DNA from: Lachnospiraceae bacterium
GTDB taxonomy: Bacteria; Bacillota; Clostridia; Lachnospirales; Lachnospiraceae
Reading direction: 5' to 3'
Length of the DNA stretch: 45,973 bases
Assembly (NCBI GenBank): GCA_016281275.1
Contig: JAEEIH010000152.1
Location: forward strand, 1 to 45,973
Position numbers and translations under genes: made by a program. Within the stretch, counting starts at the first letter, position 1. The number at the start of each line of letters is the position of its first letter. The notes below the pieces were generated by a model, which was not told the DNA's origin, did not search any database, and saw only the letters and a list, made by a program, of their open reading frames with translations. This document shows positions 561 to 27,179 of the stretch, one piece after another.

Positions 561-1388
561 TCAATCATACATGTAGATCATTGAATCGGTCAGATTATAT
601 TTATCGCCGAGGCTTTTCGCTTCATCCGTGCCGAAAAATTCCTTAAGGAAGGTATTGACTTCCTTTGTGAGGGGAGATGTTTTTCTGAATCCAACGACGA
701 ACTGTTCCGAACTTAAGGGATAATCAAAGCTGAGTTCCTCGAATTCGTTGCCTTCTCCGACAAGAGATTCGGCCATGATGTTGTCGATGATCGCGGCATC
801 ACATCGACCTTCGCTGACGCTTTTTATGGCATCTTTTTGAGTGGTACACAGGATTGTACGATATCCGTTGTCTTTGGCAACATCCTGTCCGGCAGAGCCG
901 ATTTCGACTCCAAAAAGAAGATGAACACATTTCTTGACAGAATCATACTTCTTGAATTGATCGGTCTTCATGACGATTACCTGCGAATTGGAGAGGTAAG
1001 GTGAAGAAAGCGATATTTGGTCATCAAGATCAGACGTTGCAGTCATCCCGTTCCAGAGGCAGTCAATCTTACCGTTCTCAAGATACTCTGTTTTTTTGTC
1101 CCATTCTATTTCGGTAAACTGGACGTTGACACCCATGTATTCTCCGAAACGAGAGGCAAGTTCGACATCAAACCCGGTACGGGTTCCGTCATCAAGCAGA
1201 TAGCTGAGCGGCTCATAGTCGGTGACACCGACAACAAGAGTGTGACTCATCATGAGCTTTCTGAGATCACCGTTCGTGGCCTGCGGATCGTCAGATTCCG
1301 CTTCGTTACCGCCGGAGCATCCGTACATTGCAGTAATAAGCACGATAATGCAAAAAACGGATAGTATTTTTCGAATAAAAGAGTTCAT
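561..1388 (-). CDS. Amino-acid-type ABC transporter/sensor extracytoplasmic solute-binding lipoprotein (SBP_bac_3 family)
   Basis: Lipobox-like ITAMYGCSGG; LVVGVTDYEPLSYLLDDGTRTGFDVELASRFGEYMG...VQFTEIEWDKK pattern of family 3 SBPs; GAGGAGG RBS upstream. Confidence 0.85.
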   Translation of the reverse strand: MNSFIRKILSVFCIIVLITAMYGCSGGNEAESDDPQATNGDLRKLMMSHTLVVGVTDYEPLSYLLDDGTRTGFDVELASRFGEYMGVNVQFTEIEWDKKTEYLENGKIDCLWNGMTATSDLDDQISLSSPYLSNSQVIVMKTDQFKKYDSVKKCVHLLFGVEIGSAGQDVAKDNGYRTILCTTQKDAIKSVSEGRCDAAIIDNIMAESLVGEGNEFEELSFDYPLSSEQFVVGFRKTSPLTKEVNTFLKEFFGTDEAKSLGDKYNLTDSMIYMYD

Positions 1389-1400
1389 AAGTACCTCCTC

Positions 1401-4076
1401 TTATTCATTTTTAGTCTTAAACAACAGGCCGAATGTACCCGGACCGCAGTTTACGGAAACGGAAGGAGAGGCCTTTTGACAATAGATGTTTTCAAAATGT
1501 ACCAGGTATCCTACTTCTTTCTTTACCCAGTCCAGATCTGAGTGCGACATGCTTGAATATGTGATAAAAAGCATGTGCGTATCGATGTTACGGGCTCCGT
1601 TCAATGCTGAGCGGATGTATTTCCTCCAAGCTTTTTGACGGGATCCGAAGAATATTTTCCCGATGGTCATCTTGCCGTTCTTCATCACGAGTGTAGGACG
1701 AAGCGTCAGAGTTTTGGTTATCCCGGCAATTTTCGGATTGACCTGTCCCATACGTGCAAGATAATCAAGATTATCAACTATGAAACTTGTTTTAACATGT
1801 TCCTTGACTGTCTCTATTGCTTTGCTTATCTCTTCTACCGTCTTACCTTGCGAAGCCATACGGCATGCTTCAAGAACAACAAGACCCTGACCGCTTGAAA
1901 GGTGACCGCTTTCAAGGACTGTGACATTGTTAAAGGATGCTGCTGCATCAAGCGCGGCAGCATATCCGCTGTTGGCGATATCCTTTGAAAGTGAAATATG
2001 TATGATGTTGTTGGCGTGAGCGAGACTGTCCGCGAAAAATGCTTCATGAGCCGCAACATCCGGAGCATGGGCTCTGACCTTCTTCGCATTGTTTGACATG
2101 TAGGAAATAAGTCCTCCGGTGTCGATATCGATCGAATCGCGGAATGCGCCCTCCTCGGTTATAACGGTATGCGGGATTTCTCTGATCTCATACTGGTCGA
2201 GCAGTTCGCGAGGCAGATCCGCTGTGCTCTCGGTAGTAATGCTGATAAGACGTTTGGTCTGCTCGGAGTTGATCCATGCCATGCTTTCCTCAAGAACGTC
2301 CGTATCATCCTCCGAAAGGTAGTGAACAAGTTCTCTCGGGAGATTCCTTGCAAGCTCGATCTCAAGCGATTTGCCGTCAACAGGCTTGATAAGGAAGCCG
2401 TCAAAGCCTTCGCGCTCGTAAAGGGCGCGACTTTCTGCATCGGCATTGGCCGTAAAGGAGATGATCTTCGATTCTTTGCATTTTCCTGCCTTTTGCGAAA
2501 GAATCCTTCGATGACACTCGATACCGTCCATCTGAGGCATCATATGATCCATGAAGATGACGTGGTAATAGTTGTCGACCGTGAGTCGAAGGGCATCCTC
2601 ACCCGAAGCTGCCGTATCAACCTGAACCTTTGTGTCTCTCAAAAGCTTGGTGCAGACGAGAAGGTTCGATGCATTATCATCAACAACGAGAACTTTTGCG
2701 TCGGGCGCCTCAAAACGTGATGTATATGCGTCACGGATCACTTTGTGCTTCTTTTCAAGGTTAAGATCGCCGACAGTTCCGTTTCCGGCAACAATCTGCG
2801 GAATGTCGATGACGAAGGTGGTTCCCTGTGTGTAGATACTGTTGACCGAAATATCCCCGCCCATAAGATCCACGAGCTGTTTAACGATCGAAAGACCGAG
2901 ACCGGTACCTTCGATATGTCGGTTTTTGTCCTCATCAACGCGCTTAAATGCGGTGAAGAGGTAAGGGAGGTTCTCTTTCTTTATGCCCATGCCTGTGTCG
3001 TTGACGGTGTAAAGAATGCTTTGTTTTCCGTCTTCAATCTTACCGCACTGGATGGAGAGACTGACCGAACCCTCGCGTGTGTATTTTACAGCGTTGTTGA
3101 GTACGTTTATGAGAATCTGCTTTACGCGGACATCATCGCCGATCACGGTTGCAGGCACATCCGGCGCAACATTTACATTGAATTCGAGACCTTTGTCACG
3201 GGCACGGATCCAGATCATGTTCACGAGTTCGGAAAGCATGTCGCCAATGTTATAGGAAACATTTGAAAGCTGCATGTTTCCGGACTCGAGCTTGCTCATG
3301 TCGAGAATGTCGTTTATAAGGTGAAGCAGCATCTTGCTGGCAGCGCGGATGTTGGCGGCGTCCTCTGCAACTTCGTCGGAAACGTTTTCCCTGAGGATCA
3401 TCTCGTTAAGACCTATGATAGTGTTGATGGGAGTACGGATTTCGTGGCTCATGCTTGAAAAGAATCTGTTCTGCGAGTCATTGAGTGCAGCGATCTCTTT
3501 TTTCTGTTTTTCATTCTTTTCGTTCTCGATTTTATAGATCAGTATTTCGATTCCGACCATTATGCAGATCGAAATGCTGATGAACGCAACCGATACATAG
3601 GAAGCTATGTAGGCTAAGAATGTCGAATTCTGCCTGATGAATTCGGGGTGCGTATATGAGACAATATAGCAAGCTGCGGAAACGGCAAGTTCCGATACCA
3701 AAAAGAAAATTTTGGTTTTTCCCGAAAGGATAAGGCTGACAAAGAGAGCCGAAAAAATGAACCATGAGGGAGGACCACCGTAAATGGCACCGCCTGTAAA
3801 AAAGGTATAGGGGAGCAGTATAAAGATCACAATCGTTGATATGACAGCTCCTCCAAGCTTCAGGCGCTTGCTTTTGAGTGTCCGATATATGGTAAAAGTC
3901 ATGAGCAGCGTGCCTATGGCAATCACAGCGATATCAATAACGGTAATCCCGGCCAAGGCGCTGGATACGAAGATAACGGCGAGCGAGAAAGCACTGGTTG
4001 CAATAGTGAGAACAAAAAGACGTTCCTCGAGTGATTTTTTATCCTCGGACAAAAGTTTTCGGATTGCTTTATTCAT
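1401..4076 (-). CDS. Multi-TM hybrid histidine kinase (HisKA-HATPase-REC) with C-terminal DegV domain
   Basis: FFSSMSHEIRTPINTIIG (HisKA), GTGLGLSIV (HATPase), VLVVDDN...VIFMDHMMPQMDG (REC), then a full DegV-like region ISITTESTADLPRELL...GQVNPKIAG...CGPGTFGLLF in one continuous ORF. Confidence 0.9.
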   Translation of the reverse strand: MNKAIRKLLSEDKKSLEERLFVLTIATSAFSLAVIFVSSALAGITVIDIAVIAIGTLLMTFTIYRTLKSKRLKLGGAVISTIVIFILLPYTFFTGGAIYGGPPSWFIFSALFVSLILSGKTKIFFLVSELAVSAACYIVSYTHPEFIRQNSTFLAYIASYVSVAFISISICIMVGIEILIYKIENEKNEKQKKEIAALNDSQNRFFSSMSHEIRTPINTIIGLNEMILRENVSDEVAEDAANIRAASKMLLHLINDILDMSKLESGNMQLSNVSYNIGDMLSELVNMIWIRARDKGLEFNVNVAPDVPATVIGDDVRVKQILINVLNNAVKYTREGSVSLSIQCGKIEDGKQSILYTVNDTGMGIKKENLPYLFTAFKRVDEDKNRHIEGTGLGLSIVKQLVDLMGGDISVNSIYTQGTTFVIDIPQIVAGNGTVGDLNLEKKHKVIRDAYTSRFEAPDAKVLVVDDNASNLLVCTKLLRDTKVQVDTAASGEDALRLTVDNYYHVIFMDHMMPQMDGIECHRRILSQKAGKCKESKIISFTANADAESRALYEREGFDGFLIKPVDGKSLEIELARNLPRELVHYLSEDDTDVLEESMAWINSEQTKRLISITTESTADLPRELLDQYEIREIPHTVITEEGAFRDSIDIDTGGLISYMSNNAKKVRAHAPDVAAHEAFFADSLAHANNIIHISLSKDIANSGYAAALDAAASFNNVTVLESGHLSSGQGLVVLEACRMASQGKTVEEISKAIETVKEHVKTSFIVDNLDYLARMGQVNPKIAGITKTLTLRPTLVMKNGKMTIGKIFFGSRQKAWRKYIRSALNGARNIDTHMLFITYSSMSHSDLDWVKKEVGYLVHFENIYCQKASPSVSVNCGPGTFGLLFKTKNE

Positions 4077-4077
4077 C

Positions 4078-6753
4078 TTACTTCTCCTCCTCTCCGTTCA
4101 TGTCTCCGGCGGGTCCGAATTCCAAAATATCTTCGTCCGGAGCTTCGCTTTCCGATGTACCGTCGTCATTCGCGGGCGTCGGTGAACTGCCTTCTTCGGA
4201 AGCGGGAACTCCGTCACCGAATGTATTCAGTATGGTATCGGTAAGCATTTTGTAATCATCCATAGCAGAACGGTGGCCTGCTTCCACCGTAGCTACATCG
4301 CCTGCCTTGGAAGCCTCTTCAAGTGCTTTGGCCTTCTCCGAAAGCCCTGTCGCACCGATCATCTTCGCTGTGCTCTTAAGTGCGTGCACTAGGATCGAAT
4401 AATCGGGGAGGTCACCGTTTTTATAAAATTTTTCAAGATTATGAAGCTTGTCGGCGGCCTCGGATGCGAACTGCAACAGAAGAGTACGATAGAATTCCTC
4501 GTCCTTTTGGCAGTAGAGCAGACCCTGACTTAAATCGACTCCGAGGTTGCGCAGAGGAGTATATTCATCGACAACCGAGTTGTCCGGAACCGGCGCGTTA
4601 TCCGTTACATCATTGAGGTCGATATAAGCGGAAGCCGATTCGGTTTCAAGCTTATGTTTTCTCGAGCTTTTGCGTGAGTGAGGTCTGTCTTCGAAAGTCA
4701 CAACTGTCTTGGGAAGAACGATTTTCAGGACGCGCTCGAGTTCAAGGATATCGATAGGTTTTGCAACAAAACCATCGAAGCCGGCAATACGGAAGGATTC
4801 ACGCGCAGTGCTGACTGCATTGGCGGTAAGTGCGACCATGGGAACAGATTTCCATGCGCCGAGTATGTCGGATCTGATGCGGCGCATCGCCTCGATACCG
4901 TCCATTCCCGGCATCATATGATCCATGAAGACGATATCAAATGTTTCGTGTGAACAAAGGTCGATCGCTTCCTGACCGGAGCTCGCTGTCGCAACGTTTA
5001 TGTCATAACGTCCGAGTATATCCCTCGCAACCGTGAGGTTAAGAGGCTCGTCATCGACCACCAGCGCGCGCACGCCGTGACAGTACATGTATTTATCGGT
5101 AAAATCTTCATCACTTGCCCTGTTGAGTACTTCGGCAGCGGGGAAGCAGTAAAAGGGCTTCTCCATGATGTGAACCTTTGATGATGCAGGAAGAACGAGC
5201 TCCGGTCCGGCGATGACGGAAACCGAAAAATTCTTGGCAAGCTCTTCGATATAAGAAGTGCTGCTCGCGTATTCCGCCTCGCTGACAAAGAGATGCGTCA
5301 TGCGGAGCGAAGTATTGAGCCTTTTGAGATTTTCTTCGGTGTCGACGCGGTGAAGCTGAACATTCAGTCCTTTAACGATGTTGAGAACCATGCTGTTATA
5401 GTAATCACGAACCATGGGACTGTAATGCTTTTCAAAATTGAAGAAGCCGCCGACCACAAGCTTTCCGGGATCACGTACGGAGATGCAGCCCGAAGGATCC
5501 ACAATCTCCTGGGGAACGGTAACTCTGACTGTTGTGCCTTCGCCGGGACGGCTTTCGATATGGACAAAGCCACCGAGGGCGGTAACATAACCGTTGACTA
5601 TCGCCATTCCGAGACCGAGACCGCTTGTGGAACGGGTATAGGCATTTTTACCCTGATAGTAGCCGTCAAATAGGCGATCGATTTCTTCATCCGTCATACC
5701 TTCGCCGGTATCGGATATCTCAATTATAAGATTGATGCCGTAATCTTCCTGTTGCGAGGTGAAACGAAGGTAAACGCCGCCTTCGCTTGTAAATTTGATC
5801 GCGTTGTTTACAAGATGCCAGATAATCTTTTTAAGCTTGCTCACGTCGGATCTCAACATGGCGGGTATGGAGGGATCGACATCGATGATCATCTCCACGC
5901 CCTTTTTCATGTAGGGTCTGACTTCCATGACAAGGTCGTGCAGAAGAGAGGCAAGCATGTATTCCTCGCGGTTCATGGCGAATTTTTGTCTGTCAATCTC
6001 AGAATAGTCGAGAATATCGCTGATCTGCTCGGCAACACGTTTACCGGCGCTTTGAATTGATTTGAGATTTGATACCTGATCTTTGTCCTGAGTCTGTTCG
6101 AGCGCAATGCTTGAAAGACCGAGTACCGCGTTTATGGGCGTTCTGATCTCGTGTGATACTTTGGTAAGAAATTCATTGAAACGACCGGTAGATTCGGTAA
6201 GCTGCTCAATCTCAGCCTTTGAATGGTCAAGGACCTGGGTCCAAAGGTCGATGAGAGCGCGCCCGAGCCAGCCGACCACGAACACTATGAGAGGATGATA
6301 AATGATGCGGCTGAACATAAGCGCATCAAGAAGCTCGGGAGTTTCACTGATGATAATGATCACATTGTAAAAGAATGATATACAAAACGTGATGACGCAC
6401 ACAGTGATGAGCTTCTTTACACCGGTCGTCGCACACAGAACGATTCCGATACAAGCCGTTACGGACAGGTCAAACGTACTTGTGGGATGGATCCCGTAGT
6501 AGAAGAGGAGACCCATCAGCACCATACAGAAGATTATAATTCTGTGTCTGTCCGAGAAATTTTGCTGCAAATGAATGACCCAACAGAAAATCACGGCAGC
6601 AAATATCGGAATCATCGGCCATTTTTCCCAATTAAGCAGGATACCGACAACCAGGAGAGCCGCCGAGGCCACAGTCATCGCTATCAGACACATCATGTGT
6701 GCTGTCTGAAAAAGTGTTTGATTGTCGCTTTGCTTGTTTTGCAATTCTTTCAT
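4078..6753 (-). CDS. Multi-TM hybrid histidine kinase: HisKA-HATPase-degenerate receiver-REC-HPt
   Basis: FLTKVSHEIRTPINAVLG; GLGLGMAIV; ALVVDDEP...VFMDHMMPGMDG; LVHALKSTAKMIGA HPt motif. Ends 1 nt before the start of the downstream kinase gene. Confidence 0.9.
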   Translation of the reverse strand: MKELQNKQSDNQTLFQTAHMMCLIAMTVASAALLVVGILLNWEKWPMIPIFAAVIFCWVIHLQQNFSDRHRIIIFCMVLMGLLFYYGIHPTSTFDLSVTACIGIVLCATTGVKKLITVCVITFCISFFYNVIIIISETPELLDALMFSRIIYHPLIVFVVGWLGRALIDLWTQVLDHSKAEIEQLTESTGRFNEFLTKVSHEIRTPINAVLGLSSIALEQTQDKDQVSNLKSIQSAGKRVAEQISDILDYSEIDRQKFAMNREEYMLASLLHDLVMEVRPYMKKGVEMIIDVDPSIPAMLRSDVSKLKKIIWHLVNNAIKFTSEGGVYLRFTSQQEDYGINLIIEISDTGEGMTDEEIDRLFDGYYQGKNAYTRSTSGLGLGMAIVNGYVTALGGFVHIESRPGEGTTVRVTVPQEIVDPSGCISVRDPGKLVVGGFFNFEKHYSPMVRDYYNSMVLNIVKGLNVQLHRVDTEENLKRLNTSLRMTHLFVSEAEYASSTSYIEELAKNFSVSVIAGPELVLPASSKVHIMEKPFYCFPAAEVLNRASDEDFTDKYMYCHGVRALVVDDEPLNLTVARDILGRYDINVATASSGQEAIDLCSHETFDIVFMDHMMPGMDGIEAMRRIRSDILGAWKSVPMVALTANAVSTARESFRIAGFDGFVAKPIDILELERVLKIVLPKTVVTFEDRPHSRKSSRKHKLETESASAYIDLNDVTDNAPVPDNSVVDEYTPLRNLGVDLSQGLLYCQKDEEFYRTLLLQFASEAADKLHNLEKFYKNGDLPDYSILVHALKSTAKMIGATGLSEKAKALEEASKAGDVATVEAGHRSAMDDYKMLTDTILNTFGDGVPASEEGSSPTPANDDGTSESEAPDEDILEFGPAGDMNGEEEK

Positions 6754-6834: not shown

Positions 6835-7842
6835 TTATTGCTCTTTCATTTCGTAATTGATGTCTTCGTCGATCATGTGTATCATTATGTCTGCAAATCT
6901 GGGATCGAACTGGGTTCCCTTTCCTTTTTCAATCTCGGAGCGCACCACATCCTGGGGAAGAGGTGCACGGTAACTGCGGTGGCTGGTCATTGCGTCATAA
7001 GAGTCCGCTACCGCTATAATACGGGCTTCAATCGGTATATCCTCACCCTTCAGATTATCGGGATACCCACCGCCTCCGTATCGTTCATGATGCCATCGTG
7101 CACCGTTTGCGAGAGAAGGCATCTCCTTGATCGCTCCAAGGATCTTGGCACCGAGCACGGGGTGAGTCTTGATGACCTCAAACTCGTCCTCGTTAAGATT
7201 TGCCGGCTTGTTGATAACCGCATCGGGGATACCGATCTTGCCTACATCGTGAAGAAGACCCATCATGTAGATCGTGTTCTGCTGATCGTCATTGTATCCG
7301 ATCCTTCGTGATATTTCGCGCGCATAGGCGGCAACACGACCGGAGTGACCGTTTGTGTAATTATCCTTCGCGTCGATTGCCTTTGCAAGCGCTTCAACGA
7401 CATGCATGAAAAGCTTGCTGTTTTCCTGAGTCTTTTTATGTACCTCATGTGAAAGCTCACGCTGAAGATGACTCAGATCGATGATATGACGGACACGAAG
7501 TGTCAGAACGTCCGGAACAAAGGGCTTTTTGATGAAGTCCATTGCGCCGAGCGAAAGACCTTTCGTTTCGGATTCCTCGTTATCATCGGCTGTCAGAAAG
7601 ATAACCGGAATGTTTTCACAACCTTCGAGTTCCCTCAGAGAGGTCAGAGTTTCAAAACCATCCATTCCGGGCATTTTGATATCCAAAAGAATGAGGTCGG
7701 GCTTGCCGTTCGCTTCAACATAGTCGAGAAGCGACTGACCTGATTTCAGCGCAGTAACGCGCATGTTTGAACGGCTCAGGATATGCCCGGCCATCTTAAG
7801 ATTTGTGATATCGTCATCAACTACGATTACCCAATCTGCCAT
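6835..7842 (-). CDS. Response regulator with REC and HD-GYP (c-di-GMP phosphodiesterase-type) domains
   Basis: VIVVDDD...LILLDIKMPGMDG; HSGRVAAYAREI...MMGLLHDVGKIGIPDAVINKP...HPVLGAKIL...HHERYGGGGYP. Confidence 0.93.
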   Translation of the reverse strand: MADWVIVVDDDITNLKMAGHILSRSNMRVTALKSGQSLLDYVEANGKPDLILLDIKMPGMDGFETLTSLRELEGCENIPVIFLTADDNEESETKGLSLGAMDFIKKPFVPDVLTLRVRHIIDLSHLQRELSHEVHKKTQENSKLFMHVVEALAKAIDAKDNYTNGHSGRVAAYAREISRRIGYNDDQQNTIYMMGLLHDVGKIGIPDAVINKPANLNEDEFEVIKTHPVLGAKILGAIKEMPSLANGARWHHERYGGGGYPDNLKGEDIPIEARIIAVADSYDAMTSHRSYRAPLPQDVVRSEIEKGKGTQFDPRFADIMIHMIDEDINYEMKEQ

Positions 7843-7880: not shown

Positions 7881-10800
7881 CTATTTTATTGCAATGCTTA
7901 TGTCTGATGCGAGCTGTTTGTAGGTTTCCATGAATTTGTGATGATTTGCGTTGACAAATTCTGTGTTACCCTCACCCGAGGCTTCCTCGAGAGCTTTTGC
8001 AAGAGCAAACGCGCTTTCGGATCCGATCGTCTTTGATGAACTCTTGAGAGAGTGGATGAGGATCTGATAATCGGACCATTTTTCTTCTCTGAAATACTCC
8101 TCGAGTAACCCGCCTTTTGAATCCACACCGTTACGATAGTTGTCAAGCATCTCGATATAGAAGGATTCCTCTTTTCCGCAGAAACGGAGCCCTTCGTTTA
8201 TGTTGATCCCGGCTTTTTCAAGGAGATGTTTTGCTTCATCCGAAAGAGAGGTGGGAAGGACGATCGAGTCTTCGTCTTCCGAAGTGGGACCGAACTCCAT
8301 GATGTCTTCGTTTGTGGGACCGAATTCAAGAACATCGTCATCATCACTTCTACCGCTCGGAGCAAAATCAAATACTTCAGCGACGTCGGGTTGCTTGATG
8401 TCATCGGGTTGCTTGACGTCATCGGGTTGCTTGACATCGTCGGACTGCTTGACGTCGTCGCGCTGCTTGACGTCATCGGGTTGCTTGACATCGTCGGACT
8501 GCTTGACGTCGTCGCGCTGCTTGACGTCATCGGGTTGCTTGACATCATCGGGTTGCTTGACATCATCGGGTTGCTTGACGTCGTCGGACTGCTTGACGTC
8601 GTCACGCTGCTTGACGTCATCGGGTTGCTTGACATCATCGGGTTGCGTGATATCGTCGGACTGCTTGACGTCGTCGCGCTGCTTGACGTCATCGGGAATT
8701 GTGGTCGTGGGAGCAAAGCTCATGACAGTAGGATCATCGGTTTCTTCGCTGCTTTGTTGTCTCCACTCGAAGAGACCTTCGGGCAGATGTGCGGCAAGCT
8801 TTGCCTGCAGATCTTCCACCTCGATCGGTTTTGAGAGATAGTCGTCAAAACCTGAAGCAAGGTATTTCTCTTTGGCTCCGACAACCGCATTGGCTGTCAG
8901 TACGATCACACGGGTTCCTTCGGGAACAAGATTCTCATCCTTGAGGTGACCGAGAGTAACTATACCGTCCATTCCCGGCATCATATGATCCATAAGTACG
9001 ATATCATATCTGTTCTTTTTCATCAATTCAATGCATTCCTGACCCGATGAGGCAAGATCGGGCTTGATGTTTGAAAGCTTTAACAGATTGCGCGCCACTT
9101 TGAGATTCATGTCGTTGTCATCAACAACAAGGATACGAGCATTTTCTGCAAAGAGCGTTTTTGATGTGTCTTTTTGATTCTCGGCAGTAATCCTGAGACG
9201 TTCGGAATAATCCCCGATCGCTTCGTCGGAAAGGATCTGCTGTACGATCGTGAACGAGAATTCCGAGCCGACTCCGTAAATACTGTCGACATGAAGTTCG
9301 CTGTTCATCATGGAAAGGAGCTTGGTAACGATCGACATTCCGAGACCTGTACCTTCGATGTTTCTGTTTCGGATTTCTTCGATACGTTCAAACGATTCAA
9401 AAAGCTTCTTCATATCGGCCGATTTGATTCCGATGCCCGTATCTTTAACAGAAACAAAGAGCTTCAGGCTGTCGCCTTCGCGTCCGCCATCCTTTAGCGT
9501 GAGGGTTACCGCGCCTTCGTGTGTGTATTTTACCGCATTTGTCAGGAGATTTGTAATAACCTGGGCGATGCGGACATCATCTCCGAAAAGAACGGAAGGA
9601 AGAGTCGGATCGACATCCACATTGAAACGGAGTGACTTCGCTTTTGCTCTTTCATCGATGGAATTTACGAGATCGTTGACCAATGATGAAAGATCGTATT
9701 TGACGGGAAGTATCTCCATTTTGCCGTCCTCGATCTTTGAAAAATCAAGGATCGAGTTGATGAGCGAGAGAAGATTGCGACCTGAGGATTTGATGTTCAT
9801 CGAATAATCCCTGATCGTTTCGGAATCCGTTTCACGCAGGATCATCTCGTTCATGCCGAGCACCGCGTTGATGGGAGTCCTGATCTCGTGCGACATCTGC
9901 GCAAGAAATTGATTCTTTGCACGGTCGGCCGATATGGCTGCATCGGCGGCATCTTTCATCCTTGAATTGGTCATTTCCTGCCAGCGGATCATGTTGCCCA
10001 GCGTCCTGTAAACCAGGATGATGCAGACGATGAATGCGGCAAGGCAAATGAGGTCGTAGATAAGCATCGAGCCATAAACGGAAAGGAAATTCTTTACAAC
10101 ATATATGGCGAAATCGGTACTTTCACTTCTCGTAGCGATAAGAAGCTTCATTCCGGAGTCGTAATCCGTGATGAGCTCTATGCTGCTGGCATCCTCAAAA
10201 ATCCCGTTGTATGGAAGATCCGAGATGCTCGTGCGCGTTTCGGCCGTCATCTGATATTTCCCGTAAGGATGGTTGACGATATCACCCTCGGCATCCACCA
10301 GAAAGGCATATCCTGTGTCGGTATAGCTGTCGCCGAGGATGTTCACGAGCGAGTCCATATAGAAATCAATACCGAAGTTTCCGACAAATTCACCTGTTTT
10401 GCTGTCTAGAACTGTTTCCGCAACAGTAACACAGTAACCGCCTGTTTGCTGGTCGTAATAGGGCGTTGTAACGATCCAGCCCTCATCGCTTTGTGAGAGC
10501 GCGATGTACCAGGGACGGTCCTGTACCGGCTTGTCGGGATCTGGTTCCCACCCATTGTTCATGTAGACAGTATGGACACGCTCGGGATTGGTGATATATG
10601 ACGCCGAAATTTCGGGGTATTGTTCGGTGATCTTGTTCAGGAAGCTGACTGTTTCTTCATAGTTGTCAAGCATGGAGGGGTTGGTTGAGAAAAAGCTGCA
10701 AAACATGTCAAGCTTGCTCTTTTGTTCGGCAACCCAGCTGTCAAGTTTATCTTTGTACTCGCCGGCTTCGCCCTGCATGTTCGAGAAGCCGAGCTGATAG

Positions 10801-12038
10801 GTAGTGTATATGCTTGTGAAGAGTGTAATGCTCATAACCACGATCATGATTATGATGATCAGCGCGCGGAACTTGTTATTGATGCCAAATTTATGAAGAG
10901 AGAAAAGGCTTTTCTCTCTGTGGCTTTTTTCGGTGCGGAGTATATTTTTATAGGAAATGATCTGCCCGAGTTTTTCGTTAAGGCTGCGACCTGCCTCCTG
11001 GATTTTGGCAAATTCGACCGCAGACGATTCCTCGGCTGAAGTGCTTTCGTGCGCCGAAATCTCAAGGATCTTGTTTAGAGGGGCTTTGAGCTCTCCCGTG
11101 ATACCCGAAATAAACTCGTCTCTTGCGGAAAGCGCGCTTTCCGCACGTTTTCTGCTGCGTGTGGCGAGTACATAAAGTACAACGATAACGGTGAAAAGAG
11201 CAACCGAAAGGAAGATCGTGAGAGAAAGCTGAATGTAGGATTTACGGTAAAGCTCCCATTCACTTTCGCTGACGATCAGGTACCAACCGGTGCCGTTTCT
11301 TGTGGCAAAAAGGTTTTCGTGAAGCATTCCGTCCTTAATGCGACCCGTCACAACGCCGGTTTTGTTCTTGGCGAGCGCATAAATGCCCGCATAGTCGGGA
11401 AGCTCTTCGATAAGCTTTTTACCGATCTGTTCGGGATCGGTCGAACCCGCAATGATGCCTTCGTCCGTGACGATGACGGCGTTTGTGGATTCGGTACTGT
11501 GAAGCTTTTTGATGTGCGCCTGTATCGAATCGAGAGTGTAGTCGATCGCGATAACGGTCTCTTTGTCACCGAGCATTACCGAAACCGTGAAGCAGATTTC
11601 GTTGGTAAGCGCGTCAATGTACGGGGGACTCACATAAGGCTCTCCGTTGTTTTTGATGGCGCCCTTGTACCAGAGCCTTTCCTGTGCGACATAGCCGTCC
11701 GGTGCAACAAGGTCGGGAATGATATCCCAATCGGAGGCTGCCATATATACATTGTATCCGTTTTTGTTCTCGATAAGCTGGTTCTTCTTCCTACGGAGGA
11801 ATGATGCAACTTCTTCACGACTGTGGAGATGCTCACGCAATTCGATGGCCATCCCCATGGTCGTGTTGATAGCTTCGTTGAGTGTGGTTTCAAGAGCGCC
11901 GCTCACAGACTGAAGCTGATAGGAGCCTGAGGTACGGGTCTGCTCTCGTGTTATGCCGAAAACGACAAAAATGTCCATCGAAACAATTGTAATAAGTAAT
12001 ACTGCGATGACTGCAATGATCGCACTGTTCTTTTTCAC
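7881..12038 (-). CDS. Large hybrid histidine kinase: Cache-TM-degenerate HisKA-TM-Cache-TM-HisKA-HATPase-REC-(DDVKQ)n-HPt
   Basis: Two separate extracytoplasmic Cache-like regions; FISGITGELKAPLN (relic HisKA) and FLAQMSHEIRTPINAVLG (intact HisKA); GTGLGMSIV; VDDND...VLMDHMMPGMDG; IHSLKSSSKTIGS HPt. Confidence 0.88.
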   Translation of the reverse strand: MKKNSAIIAVIAVLLITIVSMDIFVVFGITREQTRTSGSYQLQSVSGALETTLNEAINTTMGMAIELREHLHSREEVASFLRRKKNQLIENKNGYNVYMAASDWDIIPDLVAPDGYVAQERLWYKGAIKNNGEPYVSPPYIDALTNEICFTVSVMLGDKETVIAIDYTLDSIQAHIKKLHSTESTNAVIVTDEGIIAGSTDPEQIGKKLIEELPDYAGIYALAKNKTGVVTGRIKDGMLHENLFATRNGTGWYLIVSESEWELYRKSYIQLSLTIFLSVALFTVIVVLYVLATRSRKRAESALSARDEFISGITGELKAPLNKILEISAHESTSAEESSAVEFAKIQEAGRSLNEKLGQIISYKNILRTEKSHREKSLFSLHKFGINNKFRALIIIIMIVVMSITLFTSIYTTYQLGFSNMQGEAGEYKDKLDSWVAEQKSKLDMFCSFFSTNPSMLDNYEETVSFLNKITEQYPEISASYITNPERVHTVYMNNGWEPDPDKPVQDRPWYIALSQSDEGWIVTTPYYDQQTGGYCVTVAETVLDSKTGEFVGNFGIDFYMDSLVNILGDSYTDTGYAFLVDAEGDIVNHPYGKYQMTAETRTSISDLPYNGIFEDASSIELITDYDSGMKLLIATRSESTDFAIYVVKNFLSVYGSMLIYDLICLAAFIVCIILVYRTLGNMIRWQEMTNSRMKDAADAAISADRAKNQFLAQMSHEIRTPINAVLGMNEMILRETDSETIRDYSMNIKSSGRNLLSLINSILDFSKIEDGKMEILPVKYDLSSLVNDLVNSIDERAKAKSLRFNVDVDPTLPSVLFGDDVRIAQVITNLLTNAVKYTHEGAVTLTLKDGGREGDSLKLFVSVKDTGIGIKSADMKKLFESFERIEEIRNRNIEGTGLGMSIVTKLLSMMNSELHVDSIYGVGSEFSFTIVQQILSDEAIGDYSERLRITAENQKDTSKTLFAENARILVVDDNDMNLKVARNLLKLSNIKPDLASSGQECIELMKKNRYDIVLMDHMMPGMDGIVTLGHLKDENLVPEGTRVIVLTANAVVGAKEKYLASGFDDYLSKPIEVEDLQAKLAAHLPEGLFEWRQQSSEETDDPTVMSFAPTTTIPDDVKQRDDVKQSDDITQPDDVKQPDDVKQRDDVKQSDDVKQPDDVKQPDDVKQPDDVKQRDDVKQSDDVKQPDDVKQRDDVKQSDDVKQPDDVKQPDDIKQPDVAEVFDFAPSGRSDDDDVLEFGPTNEDIMEFGPTSEDEDSIVLPTSLSDEAKHLLEKAGININEGLRFCGKEESFYIEMLDNYRNGVDSKGGLLEEYFREEKWSDYQILIHSLKSSSKTIGSESAFALAKALEEASGEGNTEFVNANHHKFMETYKQLASDISIAIK
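8382..8696 (-). repeat. In-frame 18-bp tandem repeat encoding [P/R/S]DDVKQ (about 17 units)
   Basis: Direct reading: PDDVKQ RDDVKQ SDDITQ PDDVKQ PDDVKQ RDDVKQ SDDVKQ ... PDDIKQ PDV in the linker between REC and HPt. Confidence 0.97.
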
Positions 12039-25939: not shown

Positions 25940-27028
25940 TCAGCCGAGAGCTTCCTTCAGTACTTCAAGATTGTTCTGCATGATGGAAAGGTAATTTGCT
26001 CCGCCCTCGATATCTTTTGCCGTGACTGATTGAAGCGAATCAAGGGCAAGGATCTTTCGGTCCTTTGATCCGGAGTTGTCTATGATGGTCTTTGCAATTT
26101 TTTGATCGGATTTTTCGATCGTAAGAACAGTGCCGAGTGAAAGCTCATCTACCTTTCCGGCAAGGAATGAGATCGTTTCGAAGCTGGCTTCGGTTTCTGC
26201 CGAGCATCCGACGAACGCCGCATAATAATCCAGTCCGTAGTCGTCAACAAGGTAACGGAACGGGAAACGGTCGCCAAAAAGAAGAGTCTTTACGGAAGCG
26301 CCTTCAACGGCTTTTTTGTAATCATCGTCAAGCTTTTCAAGTTTTTCGGAATATGCGTCGGCATTCTTTTTATATACTGAAGCGTTTGAAGGATCAAGCT
26401 TCTGAAGAGACTCGGAAATAGCGTTCACAAGTGTTTTTGCATTCCTGAGCGAGAGCCATACATGTTCGTCGTACTCTATCTCGCCTTCCTCATGATGATG
26501 CTCGTGTTCGTGGTCGTGATCCGCGTCCTCATGGTCGTGCTCGTGATCCGCGTCCTCATGGTCGTGATCTACGTCCTCGTGGTCATGGTCGTGATCGTGG
26601 TCGTGTTCGGACTCCTGCATTCCTTCAACTGTTTCTTCCTTTTTTACCGAGTCTCCGAGGACATCGAGCAGATCGATGATCTGCATGTTTTTGTTTTCTG
26701 CACCTTTGAGAGCGTCGCTGACCCATTTGTCGGATTCGCCGCCGACATAGATAAACAGGTCGCAGGTCGAAATTTTCAGGATGTCGTTCGCTGTCGGCTG
26801 ATAACTGTGAAGATCAACGCCACTGTCGAGCAGAAGGGTAACATCCGCCTTTGCGGGGGTGTCTCCGAGTATGTTCTTAACCCAGTCGTATTCGGGGAAG
26901 ATGGTGGTGATTATTTTCAGATCGTTTTTGTCCGTCCCCGCAGCCGTGCCTGCGGTACATCCGGACAAGCATCCCATAATATAGATGAGTGTTACAAAAG
27001 AAATAAGTGTTTTTTTAAGTTTTGACAT
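25940..27028 (-). CDS. Zinc/metal ABC transporter substrate-binding lipoprotein (ZnuA/AdcA-like) with His/Asp-rich loop
   Basis: MGCLSGCTAG lipobox; TIFPEYDWVKNILGD; LLDSGVDLHSYQPTANDILKI; HDHDHDHDHEDVDHDHED... loop; YDEHVWLSLRNAK. ATG 27028 with RBS preferred over the longer ORF. Confidence 0.93.
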   Translation of the reverse strand: MSKLKKTLISFVTLIYIMGCLSGCTAGTAAGTDKNDLKIITTIFPEYDWVKNILGDTPAKADVTLLLDSGVDLHSYQPTANDILKISTCDLFIYVGGESDKWVSDALKGAENKNMQIIDLLDVLGDSVKKEETVEGMQESEHDHDHDHDHEDVDHDHEDADHEHDHEDADHDHEHEHHHEEGEIEYDEHVWLSLRNAKTLVNAISESLQKLDPSNASVYKKNADAYSEKLEKLDDDYKKAVEGASVKTLLFGDRFPFRYLVDDYGLDYYAAFVGCSAETEASFETISFLAGKVDELSLGTVLTIEKSDQKIAKTIIDNSGSKDRKILALDSLQSVTAKDIEGGANYLSIMQNNLEVLKEALG

Positions 27029-27080
27029 TATAAACTCCTCTTTATCCTCTTTAGCAGCTGTCTTTTGCTGCCGATTTCTT

Positions 27081-27114
27081 GCCTGTTGCAATTCCCGAAG
27101 GGAATGCAACAGGC
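27081..27114 (-). promoter_or_regulatory. Leader hairpin in 5' UTR of the metal-binding lipoprotein gene
   Basis: gcctgttgca-a-ttccc-gaa-gggaa-tgcaacaggc: 15 paired bases with a single bulged base and a triloop. Confidence 0.6.
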
Positions 27115-27179
27115 ATTTGGGTCTAACACAAGACTGTGTATCAGGCATTAAAAATGTATTTGCTCGCGAACAATTTTAC

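Follow-up and report, generated by a model that had tools for sequence, protein, structure and literature searches.

What is a complete DegV domain doing at the end of a histidine kinase? The question is raised by a gene on the minus strand of a 45,973-nucleotide stretch of Lachnospiraceae bacterium DNA (contig JAEEIH010000152.1; "the window" refers to this whole stretch). A first-pass annotation had read the gene, at positions 1401–4076(-), as one uninterrupted ORF of 891 amino acids in which membrane helices, HisKA, HATPase and receiver (REC) domains are followed by a DegV-like domain, and had proposed lipid-responsive signaling or phospho-gated lipid handling. Here, we describe the architecture of this gene, its distribution, the residues of its putative ligand site, and its gene context, and we weigh the possible roles of the DegV domain.

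Domain architecture of the fusion gene

The ORF runs from an ATG to a stop codon without interruption, and Pfam confirms the order of the domains. Six predicted membrane helices with no periplasmic domain (residues 16–185; 3522–4031(-)) precede a HisKA dimerization/phosphotransfer domain (residues 202–266; 3279–3473(-)), in which the phospho-acceptor, H211 (3444–3446(-)), lies in the motif SHEIRTP. A HATPase_c domain (residues 313–426; 2799–3140(-)) and a receiver of the Response_reg family (residues 462–572; 2361–2693(-)) follow, with the receiver acceptor, D510 (2547–2549(-)), in the motif FMDHMMP. The product therefore has the parts expected of a hybrid histidine kinase, i.e., a membrane region, the HisKA histidine, HATPase_c, and the receiver aspartate. 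An Hpt domain, which is optional in hybrid kinases, was not found in it by Pfam; the neighboring kinase gene at 4078–6753(-) carries one.

A linker (residues 573–610; 2247–2360(-)) connects the receiver to the DegV domain (residues 611–887; 1416–2246(-)), which is supported by Pfam, by a structural model, and by fold matching. The match to PF02645 covers profile positions 2–278 of 280 (E 1.9e-42), the NCBIfam model TIGR00762 scores well above its cutoff (158.8 vs 99.7 bits), and the DegV motifs lie where the first-pass annotation placed them. Modeled with AlphaFold, the C-terminal 314 residues form a complete, confidently predicted fold (mean pLDDT 88.7), with disorder limited to the first 27 of them. 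In a Foldseek comparison of the DegV model with the PDB, TM-scores normalized by target reach 0.87, and the leading matches are all fatty-acid-binding DegV/FakB proteins, the best being 1pzx, 2dt8, 4x9x, and 5uto. In a full-length model (mean pLDDT 79), about six membrane helices lead into the kinase helix, and the DegV domain is again confident, behind a low-confidence stretch of the linker (residues 588–607); the low pTM of this model (0.40) means that the relative placement of domains should not be read from it. An Rfam search of the whole window returned no match.

Conservation of the fusion in rumen and gut Clostridia

The source genome encodes a second copy of the fusion, of 901 amino acids, on another contig (G000:C38; L007:4185–6890), and within the genus the fusion is present in about two thirds of 24 genomes. 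We aligned these DegV domains and scanned public genomes with the alignment; from the 378 relatives obtained, we kept the 80 best loci. The set of 102 loci from rumen and gut Clostridia that we compared consists of the window, the second copy, and 100 others, some of which are one contig reached via two routes. All 103 DegV-bearing ORFs of these loci are hybrid kinases: 96 are HisKA-HATPase-REC-DegV, six have an Hpt domain after DegV, and one has its HisKA domain on a separate ORF. A complete DegV as the terminal module of a hybrid kinase, as read in the first-pass annotation, is a conserved arrangement. Phospho-acceptors are intact almost throughout, with the receiver aspartate present in 110/110 fusions and the H-box in 107/110, the three misses being short, truncated, or broken frames.

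The first-pass annotation had also raised the concern that a frameshift might have joined two genes artificially. Such a chimera is ruled out by the second genomic copy, by the 103/103 ORFs, and by two source records that, unlike most, are not labeled as metagenome-assembled genomes (MAGs), those of Ruminococcaceae bacterium YRB3002 and Lachnospiraceae bacterium G41. A close match was found in roughly 70–75 of 397 sampled genomes of the GTDB family; this count is approximate because the two types of DegV (see below) have E-value ranges that meet at 1e-67 to 1e-68. Outside the family, samples drawn more widely from the class and phylum gave few matches. One other family has the fusion (908–917 amino acids), and the remaining matches are mostly frames of DegV size.

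The domains of the fusion are not equally conserved. Purifying selection acts on the DegV part (dN/dS of 0.08–0.14 for the four pairs with usable dS), and the membrane region has a mean pairwise identity of 24%. Our literature searches, which covered sources other than subscription journals and preprints, found no paper that describes this architecture. The fusion represents a real, conserved, and apparently undescribed FakB-derived module within a phosphorelay.

Replacement of the fatty-acid head-group site

In Staphylococcus aureus FakB1, a Thr62-Ser95-Ser171-His270 network holds the fatty-acid carboxylate, and mutations in this network make the protein unstable. FakB1 Arg173 functions as a latch and in catalysis, and Arg205 functions in FakA binding and membrane docking (PMC8892158). 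We compared the equivalent positions in 112 signaling-type DegV domains and 63 FakB-type paralogues, using FakB2 numbering; the FakB2 sequence was taken from the 4x9x alignment and completed by its first few residues, and FakB1 and FakB2 positions were matched by alignment. Because the two types were assigned by the residue at position 266, the informative part of the comparison is the agreement of position 266 with the other residues, the tree, and the gene context.

FakB residues T61, S93, R170, R202, and H266 correspond to A669, A701, Q778, F810, and N876 in the product of 1401–4076(-). The carboxylate network (T61, S93, and H266) is therefore absent. N876 (1449–1451(-)) takes the place of the carboxylate-holding His266, a position that is Asn in 112/112 signaling-type and His in 63/63 FakB-type domains. 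F810 (1647–1649(-)) stands in place of Arg202, the residue for FakA/membrane docking, which is kept in one of the 112 signaling-type domains vs all 63 of the FakB type. The latch Arg170 is replaced by Q778 (1743–1745(-)), with Gln found in 90 and Arg in 10 of the 112. On these residues, we rejected membership of this DegV in the FakB group. Moreover, since His266 and Arg202 are lost from essentially the whole clade, signaling DegVs are unlikely to be loaded by, or phosphorylated with, FakA. A separate FakA-FakB-PlsX set is encoded elsewhere in the source genome; the FakA-like, FakB-like, and PlsX-like genes lie at the ends of two contigs (L008, 10039–12452; L009, 1–1486) that probably join, given that the half DegV frames at their ends overlap.

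Loss of the lipid-pocket residues was the observation that the first-pass annotation had named as telling against its fatty-acid reading, and at the head-group end this is largely what we found. The part of that reading that concerns the fold stands; the part that concerns FakB-like handling is weakened. Any binding of lipid by this DegV would have to be argued from its fold, the FakB head-group residues being gone. We consider it improbable that the domain is a true FakB-like module, with ordinary free fatty acid as its ligand, that links fatty-acid level to the kinase. The fold matches are consistent with such a module, as are the inhibition of the sensor kinase SaeS by free fatty acid (PMC5539427) and the retention of Arg/Lys170 and Ser93 in the earliest-branching signaling DegVs. 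However, the universal His266-to-Asn change and the loss of Arg202 in 111/112 domains affect the very residues that match the FakB1 carboxylate network and the FakA-binding Arg205 (PMC8892158).

The signaling type has conserved residues of its own: Asn266 (100%), Tyr211 (100%), His117 (85%), and Gln170 (80%). H725 (1902–1904(-)), in the motif GHLSSGQG, marks a site that is His in 95/112 signaling-type domains and in 0/63 of the FakB type. Strong conservation of the replacing residues, at or near the ligand end, suggests a site that was rebuilt rather than one that decayed. This conservation also bears on a further possibility, that DegV is a ligand-free structural or protein-docking module that assembles two hybrid kinases. 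A fixed partner kinase does travel with DegV (see below), and loss of the FakB head-group residues would be expected of such a module, but a rebuilt ligand end would not; we regard a purely structural role as very improbable.

A single clade with varied layouts

In a maximum-likelihood tree of 81 DegV domains, built by a quick method, all Asn266 sequences fall on one side of a branch with an SH-aLRT of 99, and position 266 changes state once, vs a mean of 26 changes in shuffles. Many inner forks of this tree are weak, and three of its branches are long. Next to the signaling clade on the tree are FakB-type paralogues from the same bacteria. Early branches of the Asn266 clade are four free-standing DegVs (L201, L202, L209, and L210), each with its own start site. 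All four adjoin a gene for a histidine kinase (HK) of the HK-REC-Hpt type, vs none of the 24 FakB-type loci whose flanks were inspected (Fisher p 5e-5, with related loci treated as independent). Four of the FakB-type DegVs (L224, L230, L236, and L237) have simple HK and response-regulator genes nearby; these loci lack HK-REC-Hpt and were scored as negative. The statement in the first-pass annotation that DegV proteins are usually stand-alone holds for the FakB type but not for the Asn266 clade, where fusion or linkage to a phosphorelay is the rule.

The clade uses the same parts in other layouts. In two loci (L203 and L204), HK-REC is followed by DegV-Hpt; in two others (L208 and L214), HK-REC is followed by a gene in which DegV is N-terminal to a further kinase, i.e., DegV-(Cache)-HK-(REC)-Hpt; and a further layout is HK-REC-DegV-Hpt. 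In gene order, where HK-REC is a separate gene, the DegV lies behind the receiver and before Hpt, meaning that fusion of neighbors would give HK-REC-DegV-Hpt. The order of fusion events that this suggests depends on a tree with the weak inner forks and long branches described above. One candidate for an unfused HK-REC and DegV pair, L200, was not counted as free-standing because its HK-REC frame ends inside an overlap with the DegV frame, and the locus reads as a frame-broken fusion.

The two-kinase cassette and its c-di-GMP regulators

Directly upstream of the fusion gene is a second hybrid kinase, HisKA-HATPase-REC-Hpt by Pfam and also 891 amino acids long (4078–6753(-)), whose stop codon is 1 bp before the fusion gene ATG. 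A gene of this type is the directly upstream, same-strand neighbor for 85/103 fusions; the first-pass annotation of the fusion had not noted this gene context. The other cases are contig edges (four), short or incomplete genes reading rec-hpt (four), hatp-rec-hpt (two), or HisKA alone (one), a REC-REC-HD gene (one), and an HK-REC or REC partner of the Hpt-bearing fusion type (six). Spacing between partner and fusion clusters near 0 bp (83 measured pairs, stop-to-stop frames). Those partner receivers that fail a strict motif all have the acceptor aspartate on inspection. Partner kinases, e.g., residues ~430–560 of the 4078–6753 product, also have a degenerate receiver-like region between HATPase and the true receiver.

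Next in the window is a REC-HD-GYP response regulator identified by Pfam (6835–7842(-)), a predicted c-di-GMP phosphodiesterase and the likely output of the cassette. We scored a c-di-GMP regulator as present if it lay no more than three genes upstream or two genes downstream of the fusion, leaving out 13 fusions at contig ends. A GGDEF and/or HD-GYP response regulator is near 75/90 assessable fusions (35 with both, 24 with HD-GYP, and 16 with GGDEF), and Pfam confirmed GGDEF and HD_5 domains on example regulators. The other 15 cassettes, including the second copy in the source genome, have no c-di-GMP enzyme within this range. Phosphate is predicted to pass from these kinases to the co-encoded REC-HD-GYP or REC-GGDEF regulator.

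The first gene of the same-strand run encodes a large sensor kinase with two Cache domains, HisKA-HATPase-REC, and an Hpt domain recognized by a local profile (7881–12038(-)). A degenerate HisKA-like stretch between its two Cache regions suggests internal duplication, and between its receiver and Hpt is an 18-bp tandem repeat of 17 copies with DDVKQP-type coding (8384–8696). At the other end of the run, 12 bp downstream of the fusion, is a gene for an SBP_bac_3 solute-binding lipoprotein (561–1388(-)); two relatives in the genus (L070 and L071) also have an SBP_bac_3 gene downstream of the fusion. A protein of this type adjoins the second copy as well (L007, 7045–9599), where genes for an ABC permease and ATPase flank it, which may point to an extracellular amino-acid input. 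Elsewhere in the window, a probable metal-binding lipoprotein (25940–27148) contains a His/Asp-rich repeat (26501–26599).

Possible roles of DegV in the phosphorelay

The position of DegV directly behind the receiver is that of a response-regulator effector. DegV could therefore be an output, with phosphorylation of the receiver opening or closing the pocket and gating the sequestration or delivery of lipid. DegV has a carrier fold, and FakB4 offers a precedent, being described as a DegV that holds acyl groups but does not supply phospholipid synthesis (PMC10138225). We nonetheless think an effector role unlikely. First, the clade includes DegVs that stand alone, that are joined to Hpt (DegV-Hpt), or that lie N-terminal to a kinase. 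Second, loss of the membrane-docking/FakA Arg in 111/112 domains argues against delivery. Third, most cassettes already have a dedicated GGDEF or HD-GYP output.

We lean toward a different role, in which the FakB-derived DegV senses a ligand and thereby gates a phosphorelay with control over c-di-GMP. The purifying selection on DegV, the variable membrane region, and the changes in layout favor a model in which DegV is the constant module, sensing a ligand or gating, and the input that varies is the membrane part. Counted against a sensor is the placement of DegV behind the receiver in the commonest form, the usual place of an output domain. The 15 of 90 assessable cassettes that have no c-di-GMP enzyme nearby also count against this reading. 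Under the sensor model, a fatty-acid-binding DegV of the FakB type would have been duplicated, would have lost the FakA-docking Arg and the carboxylate-binding His, and would have been built permanently into a membrane phosphorelay. In the 1401–4076(-) product, DegV would be the ligand-binding module of the hybrid kinase, and occupancy of its pocket would alter the activity of the receiver and kinase to which it is attached, or else phosphotransfer from REC to Hpt within the co-encoded HK-REC-Hpt partner. The partner would then pass phosphate to a c-di-GMP response regulator, in the window the REC-HD-GYP protein, and the presumptive output would be c-di-GMP turnover. We expect DegV to bind a hydrophobic ligand whose head group is not a free carboxylate.

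Rumen and gut Clostridia have probably taken a branch of DegV out of lipid metabolism and made it a sensor for a perhaps lipid-like molecule. More specifically, and more tentatively, Asn266 DegVs may be a dedicated class of intracellular receptor for a non-fatty-acid lipid (e.g., one with an uncharged head) or other hydrophobic metabolite, and may gate REC-to-Hpt transfer in a two-kinase phosphorelay that determines c-di-GMP levels in these bacteria; we hold this narrower proposal to be possible rather than probable. If DegV is a sensor, the sensory modules known from bacterial phosphorelays would gain a lipid-carrier fold, and c-di-GMP in abundant bacteria of the rumen and gut would be tied to a hydrophobic metabolite in a way that can be tested. 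Among the sequences compared, His or Asn at position 266 splits FakB-type from signaling DegVs, and this position could help to sort a large, mostly uncharacterized family whose members are often annotated merely as fatty-acid-binding. The clade still contains several arrangements of these modules, which makes it possible to trace how a stand-alone carrier became part of a kinase.

Comparison with known systems

Like other members of the FakB/DegV family (PF02645), such as S. aureus FakB1/FakB2 and Bacillus subtilis DegV, the signaling DegVs have a complete DegV fold. Unlike FakB, they have replacements at T61, S93, R170, R202, and H266, and they are fused or linked to a phosphorelay rather than encoded with FakA or PlsX. 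FakB4 of Streptococcus pyogenes is similar in being a DegV outside the route from FakA to phospholipid; in contrast to the fusion, it is stand-alone, and no signaling partner is reported for it (PMC10138225). The closest parallel in concept is S. aureus SaeRS, where a Fak-controlled intracellular pool of fatty acid tunes a membrane sensor kinase, although SaeS, the kinase on which free fatty acid acts there, contains no DegV domain (PMC5539427). With hybrid kinases and HK-REC-Hpt phosphorelays of the BarA, TorS, ArcB, and EvgS type, the fusion shares HisKA, HATPase_c, REC, and the phospho-acceptors, and its partner has Hpt. It differs from them in that two hybrid kinases are arranged in tandem, with DegV replacing Hpt or positioned between REC and Hpt.
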